Source: Cucumis sativus
Lineage: Eukaryota; Streptophyta; Magnoliopsida; Cucurbitales; Cucurbitaceae
Length of the DNA stretch: 64,000 nt
Assembly (NCBI RefSeq): GCF_000004075.3
Contig: NC_026658.2
Span: forward strand, 1,798,001 to 1,862,000
Direction of reading: 5' to 3'
A program made the translations under genes and the position numbers. Below, piece by piece: positions 3,562 through 63,350 of this stretch. A model generated the notes under the pieces. It had not been told where the DNA came from. It saw nothing but the letters and a program-made list of their open reading frames with translations, and ran no database searches. Every line of letters starts with the position of its first letter. The stretch's first letter is position 1.

Positions 3562-4499
3562 TCATCTCTTTCTAAAACTATTGCAGCTGCTTGTTTCTTC
3601 TTGTTCTTGATGATTATTTACTGAAATCTCTGTAACTCCACTTGATCCGGAGGATGAAGAACAAGGAGAAAGATTCAAATCAGTATCATTCCTTGTTCTT
3701 AAAAACTGATGAAAAACTGGCTTACAATTGTTCTTCTTCTTCTCATCTCTTTCTCTCGTGCTTCTTTTCTTTAAAAATATGCGACATAAAACCCAGTTTG
3801 GATTCTGTATCAAACATAAACACAAAAAAATCAGCTCAACTCAATTCAATTCAAATTCCAGATGGATTTTCAGTTCAAGTAATTCTCATTCAAAAAACAA
3901 CACGATTTAAGAAAGTTAAAGCTCACCAAGGTAGGTAGTTCCAGTCCGTCATTAAAAGAAGAAGGAGGAGCTTCGGAACTTCCCACAAGGCGATACTCAT
4001 GCATAACCCAATCAGTTCTCAAGCCATTTGGGGGTTTCCCAGTGTAGAAAACGAGGGTTTTCTTAAACCCTATCAATCGATTCTCTTTTGTAGAAACAAT
4101 TTTCCGATCAATTCCAGTTGCCTTCCAATACCCAGAACCAGTAGCTCTGTTAGACCTTCTTCCATTAGAGTATTTCGCTTCTCTTGTACTGAAAAAGTAT
4201 CTCTCCCGCTCTAAATCCCCTGACCCACCAAAAAATTCACAAAACCCATCAACAGAAAATCCCCCACGAATCTCAAAATAAATAAAACAAAAAAACAAAA
4301 AAAAAATCGAGACCAAACCTGGTAAATCCCATGGGTCGAATCTGCAGACATCGGCGTCGGGTATGACAGCGGCCGGGAGAGGAGAGGAGAGGGCTCTCTT
4401 GATAAGGTATTGGAGAACAAGCTCCTCATCCGTGGGGTAGAAGCGGAAGCCAGGAGGTAATCGGAGAACGCCATTCTTGAGGGAGGTGAACTTCTCCAT
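3562..4499 (-). CDS. NAC083: NAC transcription factor, NAC083/VNI2-like
   Basis: Nuclear DNA-binding transcription factor of 238 residues in three exons: 4499-4319, 4219-3927 and 3804-3562 (introns of 99 and 122 bases, GT-AG, phases 1 and 0). The NAC subdomains follow in order: A (LPPGFRFYPTDEELV, about residue 14), B (DPWDLPG at the first splice), C (SNRATGSGYWKATG), D (FKKTLVFYTGKPP and DWVMHEYRL) and E (NWVLCRIFLKK). The tail carries DLNLSP at about 200-205, an exact DLNxxP EAR-type repression motif, and ends in SSCNSFRKR, as I remember for Arabidopsis NAC083 (VNI2). That protein restrains xylem-vessel differentiation through VND7 and is linked to leaf ageing and salt response. A TATAAAG lies 53-59 bases upstream of the ATG. 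Family is certain; orthology to NAC083 is likely from the C-terminal match. Confidence 0.93.
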
Positions 4500-18714: not shown

Positions 18715-19725
18715 TTAAAGCTTGGAAAACTTGGGTTTGCGTTTGCTAGCTTGAGCGGAGATGGCTTCTTTGAGATCATCGGAGAGTAGAGTCCCTGAGT
18801 TCCAAGTTGCAACATAATCTAACCCTTGTTCTACATTTAGGTCTCTGCTTTTTAGTAGCACTGCCTTTGTTCCCACCACAGCCAATGGAGATGATGATGC
18901 TATTTCTGCATTCACCATCCACTTTTCATTCCTTTTTCCCAATCTCATACACATTACACAACAATCTATCATATGCTTTAACCACTAATTTAACTAGATT
19001 AATCAGAAGATATTAAACTAGTAAGAAATGAGAGTGGTACTAAAAGAGAAGGCATAGGAAAATTGGTTAGTATAGAGAATTTCATTACCTTCAGCGATTT
19101 TGAGGACTCCATCTTGAAGCTTCGATATAGAATCAAAAGTTCGAGAAACCAAGCCCAATTCCTTAGCCTCCAAGCCCGAAAAATTCCGGCCCGTCAACGC
19201 CAACTCCGCCGCCTTCCCATACCCTACGATTCTCGGCAGCCTCTGTAAAGTCCCAAGATCCGCCGTAATCGCCAATTTAACCTCCCTCACCGAAAACACC
19301 GCCTCCGCCGTGCAATACCTCAAATCACATGCCGTCACTATATCAATTCCTCCTCCAACACACCCTCCATGGATGCTTGCTATCACCGGCTTCCGGCACT
19401 CCTCAATCGCCGTGATTGACTCTTGCATCCACTTGATTTCCCGTCGGATTCTTTCCCCGGCTCGTCCCCGTTCCTCCGATAGATGCTTCTCGAAGTTAGA
19501 GGCTGTGGATTTGAGGTCGATTCCGGCGCAGAAGTGTTTGCCGGATCCAGATAGGATGATGACATGGACATCGGGGTTTTGGTCTAGATGTGAGAAGGCT
19601 TGACGAAGTTCGGTGAAGAGTTGGGTTGTGAGAGCGTTGTAGTGTGATGGACGATGGAGGCGGAGATGGAAGACTCCGGAGTTTGGGTTTTGTCGCTCGA
19701 TTTTTATGCATTTGTAGTCCTCCAT
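18715..19725 (-). CDS. DCI1: Delta(3,5),delta(2,4)-dienoyl-CoA isomerase, peroxisomal
   Basis: Crotonase-fold enzyme that shifts the double bonds of 3,5-dienoyl-CoA to 2,4-dienoyl-CoA, an auxiliary step of beta-oxidation of unsaturated fatty acids in the peroxisome. Two exons, 19725-19089 and 18905-18715 (intron 183 bases, phase 1), encode 275 residues. The family signature is intact: HFCAGIDL near 64-71 for CoA-oxyanion binding, and Asp128 (GGGID), Glu148 (REV) and Asp156 (ADLG). Their spacing of 20 and 8 matches the catalytic Asp176, Glu196 and Asp204 of the rat enzyme. The protein ends in SKL, a canonical PTS1 peroxisome signal. It lies about 1.2 kb upstream of the GDPD gene on the same strand. 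Very close to Arabidopsis DCI1 as remembered. Confidence 0.95.
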
Positions 19726-20165: not shown

Positions 20166-22190
20166 TTACATTCTTCTTCTTCCCATAGACGCAGTGTTTC
20201 CATCAAACAGATCATCAATCAAACCTTCAATGTCTTCAGGTTGATACTTTATGTATTTCTCCGATTGTCTTCCCGCATCAAAATGCTGCTTGAATCTCCC
20301 TACGAACGAACGGTACGCTGGAATCATCACCGCCGACACTGATATCCTAAGCTCCGATTGAAGCTGCTCGTCACTTACCACCCAACTGCTTTGCGTTTTG
20401 TGTATTTCATCGAACATGGCGTTAAAGCTTTTGAATCTCTCCTTCAATATCGGCTTTGATACTTTCCCGTTCACCAGCAATCCTTCGTGGTTTAAACACT
20501 GCAACACCTTACTCCATGTTTCTCTCTGGTAATTTTTATGGTATTGTCGCAGATTCGTCGATCGTTTCCTGCACCAACGGTCCCCCATCAACTCCGTAAT
20601 TCCACATGACCCTTTGATTTTCTGTACTATGTATCTTCCGTTGTTCATCAGGAAAATGTACCGAAGAGATGCGTCGCGGTATAGTTTTGATCTCATTGTC
20701 AGATTTGCGTCGAGTAGTTCCATTACCATTGCGATCTGAATTGCGAGTTGAGATTTTCTCGGTGATGCGTCGTCGTTCTCGTCCATTCTTGATGGTCGGT
20801 CTTCTTCGACTTTAGGGTCGAGAAATTGGAACACCTGTTCTAGGGTTTCTTTGTACTCGCAAGCGTATTTTAGGTAATTCATTATGTAGCGTGTTAATGG
20901 ATGAACTGCTCCTCCTGGAACTGGAATTTTCGCGTTGTCACTTTTGATTGAGTTCTCTAGGTCGTAGAAAATGCCGACTATTGCTTCGCCTATCCCGTTT
21001 TTTGTCCCTTCCGCTTCGGTAATTAGCTCTGTTCTGCAATTTTCAGGGAAGCCATTGATCGTCGGAACTAAATCGCGGATGGTTTCGTACATGTCAAGTA
21101 ATTTGAACATCTTCTCCGCCGATCGTTTTGTTAAAACGACGGCGTTTGCAAAGTTGAGAAGCTTGATGACTACTGCTCTTGTTAAATTGCTGAATAACGT
21201 ATGAGAAATGAAGGGATGATCGGTGAAAACAGAGTCACAAAGCCTCCACTCACCTGGGAACAGAGATTTTGAGCATTTCTTTACGACGGCGATCCATTTG
21301 TCGATTTCCGTTTGAAGTGTTTCCCATTGCATTTTTTGAATCTCGTCTATGCTAATATTTTCATACCCAAGCTGGTTCAATATTCCTTTGAACGAGCTCT
21401 GCCGTAGGAAGCTGTAACTCATACAACATTCCTTCTCGTAGCCGGCAGTGATCATTGTTCCGGCAATTCTTTTCATGTACGATACAGTGTCGTGCGAAAA
21501 AGAGGGGAACATCTCTTCCCTGGCAGAATCAGGCTCAGATGATTCAGATACAGTGCTGTTTTGTTGATCTGTTGATTCGTTGATTGCTTTGAACGACGAT
21601 TGCTTAGATGCTTTCTTGTCCGATTTAGAATCAAGCTCCCGATATTTGCATTCTTTTAAAAGGGTACTGAATTCTTCATCCAATAACGACATCGCTCGCT
21701 GTACAGCCGTGGTGGTCCGATTTAGAGAAGGAATGGAAGCAGTGCTGGTAGGGAATTCACTTAATTTAATCGCAATCTTGGCAATCCGACCTAATGCTTC
21801 GAAAAAGCAAGAATCCCTGTCGGGATCTTTACCAAGCTTCGCCGGATATTTATTAGAACTGTATCTAGAGATCATGGAATCCACCATTTTGGACAAGGAA
21901 TGAACCGAACTCGGAATTTCATGGACTACATTCGATCCATCATCTCCAACATTGTACAAAGTCTCAAGGAATTGATCAACCTCTTCGAAAATCAATAGGG
22001 TATCAGATTCTGAAGGAGGGTCTTCAATGAAGGCATCATCATCTCTATCTGCAGCAAGCTTTTCGGAACTTGCATCAGCAGCGACGGGGGTGGCGTCAGG
22101 AGTGCGACGAGGTGAGCCCAAATTAGCAATTCTTCTATTGAAATTTTTAGAAAAACTATCAGACTTTTCTGGGGGTGGGTTTTTCTCCAT
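20166..22190 (-). CDS. EXO70 exocyst subunit, C-clade-like
   Basis: Subunit of the exocyst complex that tethers secretory vessels to the plasma membrane; EXO70 binds phosphoinositides and marks the docking site. One uninterrupted reading frame of 674 residues, typical of most plant EXO70 paralogues, which are intronless. An acidic, low-complexity N-terminus (about 1-70) precedes a helical middle. The conserved C-terminal Exo70 domain (roughly 285-655) includes HPLTRYIMNYL, YIFLMNNGRYIVQKI, LRQYHKNYQRETW and ERFKSFNAMFDEIH, and the usual late motif LIDDLFDGN. The charged Ser-rich linker at about 195-235 and the C-terminal wording resemble EXO70C1/C2, which act in tip growth and pollen; the clade call is from memory. 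It faces the deaminase gene head-to-head across 1.2 kb. Confidence 0.93.
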   Translation of the reverse strand: MEKNPPPEKSDSFSKNFNRRIANLGSPRRTPDATPVAADASSEKLAADRDDDAFIEDPPSESDTLLIFEEVDQFLETLYNVGDDGSNVVHEIPSSVHSLSKMVDSMISRYSSNKYPAKLGKDPDRDSCFFEALGRIAKIAIKLSEFPTSTASIPSLNRTTTAVQRAMSLLDEEFSTLLKECKYRELDSKSDKKASKQSSFKAINESTDQQNSTVSESSEPDSAREEMFPSFSHDTVSYMKRIAGTMITAGYEKECCMSYSFLRQSSFKGILNQLGYENISIDEIQKMQWETLQTEIDKWIAVVKKCSKSLFPGEWRLCDSVFTDHPFISHTLFSNLTRAVVIKLLNFANAVVLTKRSAEKMFKLLDMYETIRDLVPTINGFPENCRTELITEAEGTKNGIGEAIVGIFYDLENSIKSDNAKIPVPGGAVHPLTRYIMNYLKYACEYKETLEQVFQFLDPKVEEDRPSRMDENDDASPRKSQLAIQIAMVMELLDANLTMRSKLYRDASLRYIFLMNNGRYIVQKIKGSCGITELMGDRWCRKRSTNLRQYHKNYQRETWSKVLQCLNHEGLLVNGKVSKPILKERFKSFNAMFDEIHKTQSSWVVSDEQLQSELRISVSAVMIPAYRSFVGRFKQHFDAGRQSEKYIKYQPEDIEGLIDDLFDGNTASMGRRRM

Positions 22191-31262: not shown

Positions 31263-32360
31263 ATGGAGCGTCCCCATCCCCTCTTCAGAAATCACTGGAA
31301 ATTTTTTGAACCTTCGAGTCTTCATGTGCCGAGGATGGCGGAACCTCCGGTATATCGCCGAACGGTGCCGGTGGTGCCGAAGGTCGTTCCTATTCCTGTC
31401 TGTTATGTCAAATCCGAAAATACCAGGCTTGATTCGGCCATCAAAATCCAGAGGGTGTTCAGAGGTTTTCTGGTGCGGAAGAGCTTGAAGAAAGTTGTGG
31501 CGATTGAGAGGGAAGTGAATGAGATAGAGAGGAGGCTTGCGAATGAAGAGACGGTCGATTTGGTTCGGAAGGATGCTAAGGAGAGAATTAGGTTTGGTGA
31601 GATATTGATGAATTTGCTGTTTAGGTTGGATTCGGTGAAAGGCGTGGATTCTGGAATTAGGAATTTGAGGAAAGCGGTGATCAAGAAGGCTATTGCGTTA
31701 CAGGAGAAGATTGATTCAATTGCTGCTGCGAATGGAGCTACTAACGTGATTTATGAGACTCTCGAACCCGTTACTGCTAAATGTGATTCCGAAGCTGTTG
31801 ATCGCGAATCTGCTGATGAGTGTGATGGCGAGAATGCTGATGGAGTAGAAGCGCCAAAGCCTGGAGCAATTCTTGAGGAATCTAAAGCTTGTTTTGTGGA
31901 ATCTAATGTTGATCCGGAAGTTCCTCAAGAATCAGAGGAAGGGAAGAACTGTCCAGGAAAAGATGACACGGATCTTGAAGCGGCAGCGAGTGAAGATGTG
32001 AGTCAGACGGATTCATCGAACAACCCACCAAATTCAGACGATGGGGTTGCAGAATGTGGGTCTGTAGATGAAAGAGAGAGTGGTGCAAATGAAGAGGATG
32101 ATAGCAGAATCGAAGAAAGAGAGGGGGATGGGCAGAGTAGAGAGATTCTTGAAAGGATGATGATGGACAACAAAAGAATGATGGAGATGATGGCGCAGCT
32201 GTTTGAAAAGAATGAAAAGCAGTCACAATTGCTATTCTCACTGTCTCAAAGGGTTGAGAGGTTAGAAAAGACACTTTTGTGTGAGATACTGCGAAAGAAG
32301 AAGAGGAACGGTACAGATAGCTCAGAAAAATCCCCCAAAACAAAGAAAAGTGGTAAATGA
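31263..32360 (+). CDS. BAG-family co-chaperone with IQ motif
   Basis: Single-exon gene, 365 residues. An IQ calmodulin-binding motif (IQRVFRGFLVR, residues 62-72) runs straight into a helical BAG domain (about 78-156), the arrangement of plant BAG5-7 proteins. BAG domains bind the ATPase domain of Hsp70 and promote nucleotide release, and the IQ motif makes the protein responsive to calcium/calmodulin. A long acidic, disordered region (about 165-290) follows. Then comes a Met/Leu/Glu-rich predicted coiled coil (about 293-345) and a basic, possibly nuclear-targeting tail (KKKRNG, KTKK). The promoter has two perfect heat-shock elements. Closest Arabidopsis name is uncertain; the IQ plus BAG order and size suggest a BAG5/BAG6-like protein without the long N-terminus of BAG6. 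Confidence 0.88.
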   Translation: MERPHPLFRNHWKFFEPSSLHVPRMAEPPVYRRTVPVVPKVVPIPVCYVKSENTRLDSAIKIQRVFRGFLVRKSLKKVVAIEREVNEIERRLANEETVDLVRKDAKERIRFGEILMNLLFRLDSVKGVDSGIRNLRKAVIKKAIALQEKIDSIAAANGATNVIYETLEPVTAKCDSEAVDRESADECDGENADGVEAPKPGAILEESKACFVESNVDPEVPQESEEGKNCPGKDDTDLEAAASEDVSQTDSSNNPPNSDDGVAECGSVDERESGANEEDDSRIEEREGDGQSREILERMMMDNKRMMEMMAQLFEKNEKQSQLLFSLSQRVERLEKTLLCEILRKKKRNGTDSSEKSPKTKKSGK

Positions 32361-39157: not shown

Positions 39158-41721
39158 TCATGAGCATGACTTTATCAAACCCAAGTTGTAAAGTACCTTC
39201 TCCGATCTTGACCGGAAGAGGTTTCCTAAAGAGAAACCTGAGCCTTCCTGTGGTGGACATTTTGACTGTTGTTCGTCGTCCTTCACATGGAGTATTGTTA
39301 GTCCAATGGCTTCTCGTACTGCCTTGATGGTTTCGCTCCTTACTGAGTTTCCAGATGCATCTGTCACGTAGAAAACATTCACGGCCTGTGTTCCTCTGGT
39401 GGTAACCTCGGCTCGTGTGACAGAAAGACCATTCTCTCTGAATATTCTCGTTACATCTGTTAAAAGTCCAACTCGGTCTTCACTGCAAAGCTCGAGTTTT
39501 ATACCCTACAGTTCGAACAACGAAGTTGCATAAGAACAATGAAAAGTAATTTTTGCGATGGAGCACTCTGATTCGTATAAATACCTCAGTCGTTCGTCGC
39601 CTAATTGCAGCCTCTAAGCAGTGGATTACCCTCTGTCTCTCTGCCTCTGAACTAATAGGGCTTCCATCTACATGCCTGATAAAGTACTCCTGCCAGAGAG
39701 TTAGAGAGATTGATATTTCATATATTTCTGTCAAATGGGATTGCCGAAATCCGTGTTCGAAAGTTCATATTTAACTAAAAGGGAAATGAATTAAAGTCTG
39801 ACAAACACAATTTTGAACCAACCTGATAAGCCTCAGGCTCTTCAGCAATGATGGTTGCATGGTACACCACATATTGCATATCGGTCAGGGTGCAAACCGT
39901 ATCAAAAAGTAGCTTGGGTCGGTCAGGACATCTAAGGTTGACAACGGTATATCCCTTCTCAACACAGTTCTCTACAGTCACAAGGGGCCTGCTCTGGTAG
40001 CTTTCGCTGCAACTCGTGTAATTCAAGTCGAAATCACGGTCTGCATACATCATTTGATGCAGCCTCCGCTCTTTATGAGTAGAGTTCATTGAAACAGCAG
40101 TATTGGCACTGTGTTTATCTCTGTCTCCTTTAAGAACATAGAGGAGAAGCTGTTTAATCTTAGCCAACCAATCGGGGTCATCGATCGGCATTCCACTCGT
40201 GTCATCGGTGATGTAAACAACTGAAGCCATTCTTGAATTATGGGTCCAAACCTCTGCAGCTACCACATTACATTTGAGATCTGTAAGAACAGCAAAAACC
40301 TCAGAAAGCAAGCCTGGCCTGTCTCTTCCAGACAATTCAATCGTTGTGTGTTCAGCAGCAGCTTGGACACCTACCGACCTCCTCAATGATCTGAAACTGC
40401 GTGCCCTTGGCCCCAGTGACTGAGACAGGAAAAAACTTTTTACTTTCCATTCAATAAGTGAACTTAACATAAAGCATAACCAGCTTTTCACATGACTCCA
40501 AACAAAATTATGCTAAAGCAACTTGACAAAAATCAGACACAAGACAACTATCATAAACTTTATTGTCTGTTCTTCCTCTTGTTGCCAACTTGATATACGA
40601 ACCTCGTTAAAAACAGTTAAGCAAGGACATCCTCAATTAAATATAATGAAAACATTTCACTTGACTGACAAAGTAAAAACCTCAATGGTCATCAAGTAGA
40701 TAAGAAAAAGTTAAGCGTTTCAGGGGCTAAATTGAAACTAAACTCAAACTTTAGGGACTTGAGTGTAATTTGTTAAAGAAACATTCAACCAAAACTCTTC
40801 TTATCTTCTCTCTTGTCTACTACTTCCATTCCATGGGTCATCTCAATCAATTGAAGCTTAATTTCTACTGTGGCTATAAGTGCTAATTCTAGAGGGCCTA
40901 GTTTAACAGATTAACCAGCAAATGACATTAAATCAAACTCAATGAGATTGAATGAAAGTTTCTCTATTGAAATTCGAGTTTTAACTTTGAAAAATGGCTT
41001 AAGAGTGCAAACATTCAAACAAAACTTGAAATGTAAAACGTACCTGTTGAATTCTCTCACCCACACCATCATCACAAAGTTTTTTCCCATTCTGATCAGT
41101 GACATGAAAAACTAAAAAAACAAAAAAGGCAAAACAAGAAACACAACAGATAATGAATTTCAGACCCCAAAAACTGAAATGGGAAAGAACAGGAATAGAA
41201 AAAAAAGATTATTAGTTATTACCGTCCATGAACCATTCACCATCTGAAGAAATGTAAGCTCGACGAATTATAAGATTCAAATCAGTAAGGACTTGAACCA
41301 CCTCCAGCAAACTACCATGCCTGTTAGAACTATCAACCTACAAAAAAATCTCAAATCAGGAACAACAAAATCTCAAATCCTGCATCCAAAATTACAAACA
41401 AAAACCAATCGATTCGTTGGAATACCTTAATCAAAGTGGCCTTCCTGCTCGAGGTATTATCAATAGACACCCTGAGAATGGAGCATTAAAAAGCAACAAA
41501 CAGATTCAGAACCCGCGAAGAAAGACGAAAAATCGCGGGAAGAAAAATAAATAAAATTTGAAGACCCAATTGGTTGTGAGAAAATCCCATAAGAAAGAGA
41601 AGGAATCGGATGAAAACGAATGGAGGAAGTAGTAGGGGAAGCGATTATACCTTGGGGGGTTCATTCTAATGACGAGCTTTTGATACTCATCGTGAACTGG
41701 AAGAGAAGCCCAAGAATCCAT
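39158..41721 (-). CDS. ACT domain-repeat protein, ACR6/ACR4-like
   Basis: Plant ACR protein with four ACT domains, which are small ligand-binding folds thought to sense amino acids. Seven exons: 41721-41651, 41471-41426, 41337-41223, 41111-41044, 40419-39823, 39689-39585, 39505-39158; all phases agree, 449 residues. The start [20 protein letters not shown] matches the family opening [14 protein letters not shown]. ACT1 (about 38-100) has [17 protein letters not shown]2 [23 protein letters not shown]3 [19 protein letters not shown], and ACT4 [20 protein letters not shown]. The protein ends in FNFGLI-like NLGLIKSCS. The conserved linker [20 protein letters not shown] is intact. The [18 protein letters not shown] linker after ACT1 points to ACR4/ACR6 rather than ACR8. 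No transit peptide is obvious. Confidence 0.94.
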
Positions 41722-48118: not shown

Positions 48119-49116
48119 TAGAGAAAGAAATTGTTGTTAGAAATCAAATCAGTACGTACTTGTTTTGTCTGACTAACATTTTGCAGGTTTTGCGCCTGCA
48201 GTTGAGCAGCTATTGTGAGTTTTTTTCGGCCTTTTTTTCTTCAAATTTGTTGTTGTTGTTGTTGTTTAAGTGATTTTATTAATGAGAAAGAGAGTGCCTG
48301 TAGTATAGACACTGGTAGAAGAGTTGATTATTTGGGGTCCAAAATCCAGGAAGTTTACTGCTTTTTTTTGCTGTTGGTATTGTATTCTTAGTATTTTTAA
48401 TGCTAAAAAAAGCCAACTATTTTTTATTCCTCTCTATCTTCTTTTTATTTATAGAGTTTTGTAAGAGAACAAAAGAAATGGATTTGGATAGGGCACTGCT
48501 TTAGAAGGCAATTAGGCTTTTTATTGGTTGATGAAGGTTTTGATACAACCAATGCCAATTGATATCAATAGATTTTCTTGTAGCTAAGTTTACATCTTTT
48601 TGCTTTTCTTTTTAATCATCAATGAGAGCAAATTGGGGGGATCAGATGACATTATATTCTGTGTTCATTGGTGAACCATTGTCTAATCTACCATGGATAT
48701 CTCCAATCTTCCCTTGGGTTGCTGATATGACAGAATGGACGGTTGATTTGGTTGACTAAACAAAATTGGATGTTTTAAATGTGAACTTAGTCTGTGCTTT
48801 TAATTTTGGTTTTTATACTTTTAAAAGGTTGGTTTGTGGGATACTTAGTACTTTTCATCTTCTATTTCAATATTGATTCAATGTGTTTTAGAGACGGACC
48901 GTGTTGGTCAGAGAGAGATCTATGGGTTCGATTTTTCTTTTGAAAAAACTGGTTACGGCTGGATTCAAGGAAAACTGATCGATATTCTTCAATTTGGTCG
49001 GTTTTGGTTGTTGACTTAGGTATGTTTTTAGCTTCCTTTGCTTGTCCTTGCTAAAAGTATACGTATCAAAATGAACCAATGAATATTTTGAATGCATAAA
49101 GGTATAAATGTTAAAA

Positions 49117-49280
49117 TGAACAAAAAAAAATGGAATACGTTGACCAAAGAATATTTAAATCAAAAGTGAACAAAAAAAATGGAATACATTGACCAAGAAT
49201 ATTTAAATCGAATGTTTAAATCAAGAATGAACAAAAAAAAAAATGAAATACATCGATCAAAGAATATTTAAATCAAGAAT
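49117..49280 (+). repeat. Three-copy A-rich minisatellite
   Basis: Blocks of the form TGAACAAAAAAAA-TGGAATAC-TTGACCAA-GAATATTTAAATC begin at 49117, 49167 and 49228 (periods 50 and 61). The copies differ in the A-run length, in a few substitutions, and by a small insertion at the end of the second copy. Confidence 0.85.
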
Positions 49281-61834: not shown

Positions 61835-62989
61835 CTTCCAATTCACACATCTATCTAATTAATTTAAACACAACTAAATGTTATATTTCACCTATTCACA
61901 TATTATCTAAGTTTTAATAATTTTATCTCAATTAATGCCTTGGTTATTATTTATATTGTAACAACGTTTTCAAAATCTGTCTAATAATAGTTATTATATG
62001 TAATAAAAAAAATATTAAGAGTAAATATACAATTTCATATTTGAATAACAATAGTTTATTTATCAAAACATTTTAGGTTATTGATTTTGTTTTTTGCTTT
62101 TTAATTGATTGGTTTGAATTGTTTGGTGGGTAGGGTTGGATTCAAATAAGGATTGTTCATTCCCGGGAATGAATAAGGATTAGGATGTCTTTAGGTGCTT
62201 GCAACATTGCTATTCAATAACCTCATCAATGAGTCGGTTGGCACGAGCCAATCAACCCAAGCTCGATTCAAATAGAACTCAATTCATTCATGTTTGATCA
62301 ATCCAACCTATTTATTTATTGTAGGCATGTGTTTGAGCTATATTTAGACTAATTAGTCAAGATTATCTATTGAGTCAACTATACATGTGTGCATATACTA
62401 ACAATATACATAGAATACTAAAAACATTTTCGAACTCTTACTTCAACATTGATCGAAAATCTTATCAATTTCGTTATGTTATCTAATTAATTAGTTGACT
62501 TACTATCTTGCGAAATCAATTATACACTCACGTTTTAAATTTGGGTAACTTGATGTATCATTTGCTTTAGGAGATGTTAGGGAGAAGTATGAGATAATGG
62601 ACAGCATTCCATGGAGTCAACAAACTCAACCATTGCAAATGACACCTAGCTAGAAGGGATTAAAAACCTTCAATTGGTTAGACAATTAAGAACCAGCTTG
62701 TAAAGTTTGAGTAATATTTAGAACTATTCTTATTATTTCTTTCCCAAATTAAAGGGATTTGTTGTATATAAACGTTGCTCTAATTAGAGCAAATCATATT
62801 CATTGAATACACAAAATCTTTTCACAAAAATATCTCAACTACTTTTTCATTTATAACCACAAATTTATATTGTGATTTTAATGCTTCACATGTTTCCTCC
62901 TATTTTTACCTACATTATTTGAGTATAAATTATGGTTTCATTTTGGATGTGAAAAACATACAAACTAATATACACAACATTCCAAATCA

Positions 62990-62999
62990 TATATAAATA
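62990..62999 (+). promoter_or_regulatory. TATA box of the Cys-rich peptide gene
   Basis: TATATAAATA ends 26 bases before the ATG at 63026. The transcription start would then be very close to the start codon, giving a short leader, or a slightly upstream TATA-like run (ATCATATATA) may serve. Confidence 0.6.
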
Positions 63000-63025: not shown

Positions 63026-63350
63026 ATGGAGAAGTCCTCGACCAAGTTGGCTTGCATGTTATTGATGTTCTTTATTGTCTCTGGTATATAAAATAATTTT
63101 GATTTTATATGTTGTTTTTTATTCGTTTTTCTTTTATCGAACAATTATCGATTAAAATATTTCAGGAACATTGTTCGTCTCAGAAGCAAGAAATGTAGTA
63201 AACGTTCCATGCAATACTGAGCAAGATTGTTCGGATCCAGTCAAATGTATTTGCAACTTCCATCTATGTTTTTGCAAGGGAGAATCTACAAAGACAGTCT
63301 TGGACAAAATCCTTCCAAAATCTTTGAGAGAACAGAAAACAACTCCTTGA
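63026..63350 (+). CDS. Secreted cysteine-rich peptide, NCR/late-nodulin-like spacing
   Basis: Two exons, 63026-63083 and 63166-63350, separated by an 82-base GT-AG intron in phase 1; 80 residues. Residues 1-27 form a clear signal peptide (hydrophobic LACMLLMFFIVSG TLFV, cleavage probably after SEA). The mature part has six cysteines at 35, 41, 47, 49, 54 and 56: CNTEQDCSDPVKCICNFHLC then FC, i.e. C-x5-C-x5-C-x-C-x4-C-x-C. A basic, cysteine-free tail of 24 residues follows. The opening CNTxxDC and the intron just after the signal peptide recall legume nodule-specific NCR (late-nodulin) peptides and other defensin-like families. It differs from squash trypsin-inhibitor knottins (C-x6-C-x5-C-x3-C-x-C-x5-C). 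Function unknown: defence, pollen or symbiosis-like signalling are all possible. Confidence 0.75.

Follow-up and report, generated by a model that had tools for sequence, protein, structure and literature searches.

Small secreted cysteine-rich peptides are a known kind of plant protein, and the families that they form often expand while diversifying their mature part. Described groups that bear comparison with the locus analyzed here include the plant defensins, for which eight cysteines are the norm, the potato-type metallocarboxypeptidase inhibitors and the squash trypsin inhibitors (PF00299 knottins, such as MCoTI-II and EETI-II), with cysteine spacing C-x6-C-x5-C-x3-C-x1-C-x5/6-C. According to the accessible part of PMC9515463, NCR and late nodulin peptides are small, secreted and mostly encoded by two exons, with four or six cysteines, and the corresponding part of PMC6056668 describes NCR signal peptides as relatively conserved and their mature part as extremely divergent. 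Within the Cucurbitales, the nodule defensins DgDef1-6 of Datisca glomerata combine a signal peptide with a cysteine domain and, in four of six, a C-terminal extension (PMC9387825, in the text available). In this work we analyze a locus at positions 63026-63350 of a 64,000-nucleotide stretch of the Cucumis sativus genome (hereafter the window; contig NC_026658.2, designated C4, positions 1798001-1862000), together with its relatives in the same genome, of which 226.6 Mb in 88 contigs were searched. Read from its sequence, the locus is a genuine gene of two exons whose product is a small secreted peptide with six cysteines; this is a known kind of product, and it is the cysteine framework and the frozen core of an amplified lineage that set its family apart. 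Our preferred explanation, on which confidence and doubt are evenly balanced, is that the gene is functional, encodes a secreted disulfide-rich mini-protein and stands as a single copy in sister position to a many-copy cucurbit family.

Gene model and relatives in the cucumber genome

All features of the gene lie on the forward strand. Exon 1 (63026..63083, 58 nt) opens with the ATG at 63026, ends in phase 1 and holds the bulk of the signal peptide (MEKSSTKLACMLLMFFIVS); a phase-1 GT-AG intron of 82 nt (63084..63165, GTATAT...TTTCAG) separates it from exon 2 (63166..63350), which encodes the end of the signal peptide, the mature peptide and a tail, and closes with a TGA stop at 63348-63350. 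The original prediction had given exactly these exon and intron coordinates, together with the ATG, the signal peptide, the 82-base GT-AG intron, the six cysteines and the stop; an alternative acceptor further downstream, yielding a 100-nt intron, is also in frame, and the acceptor first proposed was retained. The spliced product has 80 residues (MEKSSTKLACMLLMFFIVSGTLFVSEARNVVNVPCNTEQDCSDPVKCICNFHLCFCKGESTKTVLDKILPKSLREQKTTP). Six of its cysteines fall within a 22-residue block (residues 35-56) and are spaced C-x5-C-x5-C-x1-C-x4-C-x1-C; a seventh, at residue 10, belongs to the signal peptide, which was called by judging the hydrophobic stretch rather than with a dedicated predictor. The apparent signal peptide, short length and conserved even number of cysteines place the product in the general class of small secreted cysteine-rich plant peptides.

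The conserved 29-residue core (RNVVNVPCNTEQDCSDPVKCICNFHLCFC, 63189..63275) has cysteine codons starting at 63210, 63228, 63246, 63252, 63267 and 63273, and is followed by a C-terminal tail of 24 residues (63276..63347), cysteine-free, with net charge +3 and predicted to be disordered. The tail had been singled out as unusual for being both cysteine-free and basic. Both properties are borne out in this peptide, but six other members have tails with charges between -1 and +3, and basicity is therefore not fixed in the family.

A search of the genome with the exon-2 protein, using a query that carried I for T at its first residue, outside the cysteine core, gave at least 34 matches, of which at least 29, the window gene among them, had E <= 0.001; both counts are lower bounds. 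The 28 other matches at this threshold are concentrated on C2, which has 22 (13.895-14.002 Mb, one strand); the rest are divided among C3 (three), C1 (two) and C6 (one). Paralogs, which the original prediction had suggested seeking in tandem beyond the window, thus exist, but among the matches listed none lies elsewhere on C4, all being on C1, C2, C3 and C6. At 26 of the 28 loci, exon 2 is preceded at a suitable distance by an exon 1 that encodes a hydrophobic signal-like stretch, ends at a GT donor and joins in phase 1; for L025 and L032, both of which have the six-cysteine core, no such exon was detected. Leaving these two, the truncated L039 and four weaker matches out of the model counts, intact two-exon models elsewhere in the genome amount to 25 close paralogs on four chromosomes and the distant L038 on C3. 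A search with L038 as query reached a further distant relative, L047 (C1, 9.18 Mb), again with a phase-1 intron. Exon 1 measures 58 nt in all 25 close paralogs and 70 nt in L038 and L047, and the intron spans 95-107 nt across the close paralogs, 104 nt in L038 and 764 nt in L047. The last figure stands out against 82-107 nt in the other members, L047 being the most distant relative.

The family thus falls into four lineages, with L038 and L047 each forming one besides the window gene and the 25-copy clade. A tree of 22 rows, from which identical coding sequences were dropped and for which the bootstrap is not yet settled, joins the window gene to the 25-copy clade as sisters with support of 99/100 and places L038 and L047 outside on long branches. 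Aligned rows of all four lineages share the framework C-x5-C-x4/5-C-x1-C-x4-6-C-x1-C, and the six cysteines, D13, P17, L26 and F28 are invariant across them; the family alignments (7, 14, 6 and 7 rows) are composed of chosen representatives.

Most of the amplified copies form an array on C2 (G000:C2:13895814-14001954; L011-L035 in part, and L039), in which about 106 kb hold 22 six-cysteine matches on one strand, 20 of them with intact models. Spacing between neighbors is 2-3.3 kb in most cases and reaches up to 22 kb, with truncated or weak copies interspersed. Block duplication within the array is suggested by the order in which some near-identical copies occur. Four copies (L017, L026, L027 and L028) have a second ATG frame with a GT donor about 180 nt upstream of their ATG (MVKYILNCKHSCCVIVATISS, or a variant ending ISY), which may reflect chance or an old duplication.

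Sequence constraint and promoter

Of the 25 close paralogs, 24 share one and the same 29-residue core. Synonymous difference among these genes is about 0.13 per site and alike in signal, core and tail, whereas nonsynonymous difference is 0.067 in the signal, 0.0021 in the core and 0.079 in the tail; over all 300 pairs, and with the core stretch taken as 31 residues, pN/pS is 0.50, 0.02 and 0.59, respectively. Minimum synonymous/nonsynonymous changes number 10/2 in the core, compared with 10/19 for the signal (Fisher p 0.006) and 16/39 for the tail (Fisher p 0.0008). These figures are approximate, the copies being related and gene conversion being possible, but synonymous changes persist in the core, and homogenization alone therefore does not explain its identity. 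Judged from these substitution patterns, the core of the amplified lineage is under strong purifying selection.

Constraint on the window gene was gauged with six of the 26 other models (five close paralogs and L038), region identities being taken against five. Its dS is about 0.5-0.9 and saturated against L038. Whole coding sequence (CDS) dN/dS is 0.37-0.79, below 1 in all five close pairs, and core dN/dS against the same five paralogs is 0.54-1.09 on few changes. In neutral simulations at 0.35 substitutions per site, run without indels and at about half the window gene's dS, the frame and six cysteines were kept in 0 of 5000 runs starting from L021 and in 1 of 5000 starting from the window gene. 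Taken with the recurrence of the two-exon plan across the genome, this puts the observed gene structure well beyond chance. Because an open frame with six cysteines hardly survives neutral simulation and whole-CDS dN/dS is below 1, the window gene is most likely maintained by selection, on weaker evidence than for the array.

A TATAAAT element at 62924..62930 (forward strand, -102 from the ATG) has an aligned counterpart, TATAAA, in each of the 25 close paralogs, located at -86 to -91; transcription of the window gene would then start at about 62955. The TATA box of the original prediction is a different, TATA-like stretch (TATATAAATA, 62990..62999, forward strand), which lies 36 nt before the ATG. 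It is probably not the promoter, since it would leave hardly any room for a 5' leader and the paralogs do not share it, and the element at 62924 is preferable as core promoter. The interval from the conserved TATA to the ATG is free of TATA[AT]A in 24 of the 25 close paralogs, the exception being L030, with one at -26.

Comparison with known families and rival explanations

No Pfam or NCBIfam model reached significance for the family proteins scanned. The original prediction had likened the peptide to NCR/late nodulins, citing its CNTxxDC opening, and had proposed the late nodulin and defensin profiles as checks; neither Nodulin_late (PF07127) nor the defensin model (PF00304) lists the window protein at E <= 10, and late nodulin membership is not supported. 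The opening is present, but lies at least as near to that of squash knottins as to that of NCRs. PF07127 gave weak rows in two of seven family members, the better being L038 (E 0.3, 11.9 bits against a cut-off of 30.4), and 12 matches genome-wide (best E 0.435), all below cut-off and none at the window locus. PF00299 returned no row at E <= 10 for the window protein or the other family members scanned; its seven genome matches lie elsewhere, and six squash trypsin-inhibitor loci exceed its cut-off in this genome. The best Pfam row for the window protein is the metallocarboxypeptidase inhibitor model PF02977 (E 0.083, 13.1 bits against a cut-off of 25), which has no match over cut-off genome-wide; the potato-type inhibitors share with the family a PC-x5-DC-x5-C opening of the cysteine domain, and three metallocarboxypeptidase-inhibitor rows appeared, below significance (E 1.4-1.6), when the family profile was compared with the PDB.

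In direct profile comparisons, the squash knottins scored 19.1 over 19 columns, a value reached by none of 200 shuffles when shuffles with failed alignment were scored 0, and the defensins scored at shuffle level (11.2, with 41 of 200 shuffles as high). Plant defensins resemble the family in having a signal exon, a phase-1 intron near the signal end and a mature domain in exon 2, and a phase-1 candidate of the same gene plan can be drawn, as an unverified model, for each of seven defensin loci in this genome. Their translations here carry about eight cysteines, in contrast to the six of the window peptide, and are spaced differently. The earlier statement that the spacing fits neither squash inhibitors nor defensins holds, since the exact spacing differs from both in this genome. 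Open papers, searched by motif strings, titles and abstract openings and without UniProt or InterPro, yielded no description of such a family; the accessible part of the review PMC11756074 contains no cucumber family of this kind, and that of the plant cysteine-rich peptide survey PMC5557327 does not name cucumber.

The predicted structure of the core comprises a three-residue helix and a beta-hairpin, and residues 33-53 of the mature model, in the tail, have pLDDT under 50 and are predicted to be disordered. Structure comparisons of the predicted hairpin fold gave weak and mixed matches. Together with the sequence, these models suggest that the core fold is probably knottin-like; weighing against this, the squash inhibitors of this genome read as single-exon genes with other cysteine spacing. 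It is strongly implied that the core is secreted and disulfide-bonded. We envisage that the signal peptide is cut near the junction of SEA and RN, that oxidation of the 29-residue core gives three disulfides and a compact, knottin-like fold with the beta-hairpin at its C-terminus, and that the flexible tail would serve as a C-terminal propeptide, trimmed or aiding sorting. With less confidence, the peptide may act outside the cytosol, either in the apoplast or in the vacuole, through the binding of a single conserved target, most plausibly as a defense peptide or enzyme inhibitor. A frozen core and high copy number would point to an unchanging target and to demand for large amounts; same-core copies would have been retained to increase production and not to diversify the peptide. 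The window copy, which differs from the amplified form, may serve another tissue or target.

Descent from a squash-type knottin, sharing ancestry with the cucurbit trypsin inhibitors through loss of cysteine I and gain of one before the last, would account for the common C-x5-DC...C-x1-C segment and the weakly similar model within one genome. The family here is, however, without the first cysteine and the loop that follows it: no cysteine occurs in the RNVVNVP stretch, and neither the squash spacing nor a reactive loop after Cys I is found. Each of the six inhibitor loci reads as a single uninterrupted frame in which Met and an N-terminal propeptide precede the knottin, unlike the two exons and C-terminal tail of this family; only 19 columns align, with no PF00299 row for the proteins scanned, and the CxxxxxC...CxC pattern, in a comparison chosen post hoc, is short and recurs in carboxypeptidase inhibitors. 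We consider such descent unlikely. Kinship with NCRs as a non-legume late nodulin, or with the Datisca nodule-specific defensins, is the least probable of the alternatives and would be surprising. It draws on the two-exon plan, with a signal exon followed by a mature exon, on the PCxxxxDC opening, on the weak PF07127 rows noted above and, as its best argument, on DgDef1-4, which carry a C-terminal domain after the cysteine domain and form one clade with NCRs at 80% bootstrap (PMC9387825, in the text available). Yet the contrast between signal and mature part is reversed relative to NCRs, with pN/pS of 0.02 in the core and 0.50 in the signal among the 25 close paralogs, and the Datisca extension, compared by published description in the accessible text, is acidic and nodule-expressed, whereas the window tail is +3. 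To our knowledge, cucumber does not nodulate.

As to function, the peptide might be the ligand of a plant receptor, for instance in pollen-pistil or developmental signaling, with its core frozen by receptor binding. Small two-exon secreted cysteine-rich genes do include signaling peptides. The near-complete constancy of the core over 25 copies fits a single receptor, and its near-neutral charge, which disfavors simple membrane attack, suits signaling better; against this, twenty same-core genes in one stretch would in our judgment be unusual for a signal, and genes of male/female interaction are thought to be under positive selection (PMC3525529, in the part available). We rate a ligand role as doubtful, though a little more credible than squash descent, and infer a ranking in which a defense peptide or inhibitor is the first choice and a receptor ligand the second. 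It is improbable, in turn, that the window copy is a silent or decaying relic while the array does the work. It is the sole C4 copy among the matches listed, its core dN/dS is 0.54-1.09 against the five close paralogs compared, and its upstream 300 bases are only 0.51-0.57 identical to those of four close paralogs compared; but ATG, splice sites, frame and six cysteines are intact at a dS of which neutral runs at about half the distance almost never retain them, whole-CDS dN/dS stays below 1 and the TATA element is conserved. Beyond the preferred explanation of a functional gene for a secreted mini-protein, a fuller history can be put forward tentatively: a cucurbit-specific scaffold, absent from the family libraries searched, may have arisen when a knottin framework lost its first cysteine and the orphan paired with a new one beside the last, after which one lineage changed fast, became fixed and was copied to at least 25 intact one-core genes.

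Neighboring loci and implications

Elsewhere in the window, Pfam identified a NAC factor (3870-4499, reverse strand), an enoyl-CoA hydratase/isomerase (19018-19725, reverse), an Exo70 exocyst subunit (20166-22190, reverse), a BAG/IQ protein (31263-32360, forward) and an ACT-domain protein (39775-40491, reverse), and two more window frames in the scan matched no family. Overlapping short tandem repeats with 49- and 61-base units, two copies each, occupy 49113-49274. Outside the window, the six squash trypsin-inhibitor loci (L040-L045) are clustered at G000:C4:187765-203580; in L040 a neighboring frame encodes a peptide (VCLVKGKACKSHKDCPSDCACYTAGHCGDWVL) that looks by eye like the citcol peptides of Citrullus colocynthis, which are non-inhibitory, as these appear in the accessible part of PMC7565491.

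Short two-exon genes of this size are easily missed by annotation. With a core held constant over 25 genes on four chromosomes while signal and tail drift, copy number itself looks selected; if true, the family would represent an unusual dosage amplification of a cysteine-rich peptide in place of the usual diversification. The window gene and its two distant relatives provide an outgroup for asking what changed before amplification. For defense biology and peptide engineering alike, the interest would lie in having a stable scaffold this small in a crop.
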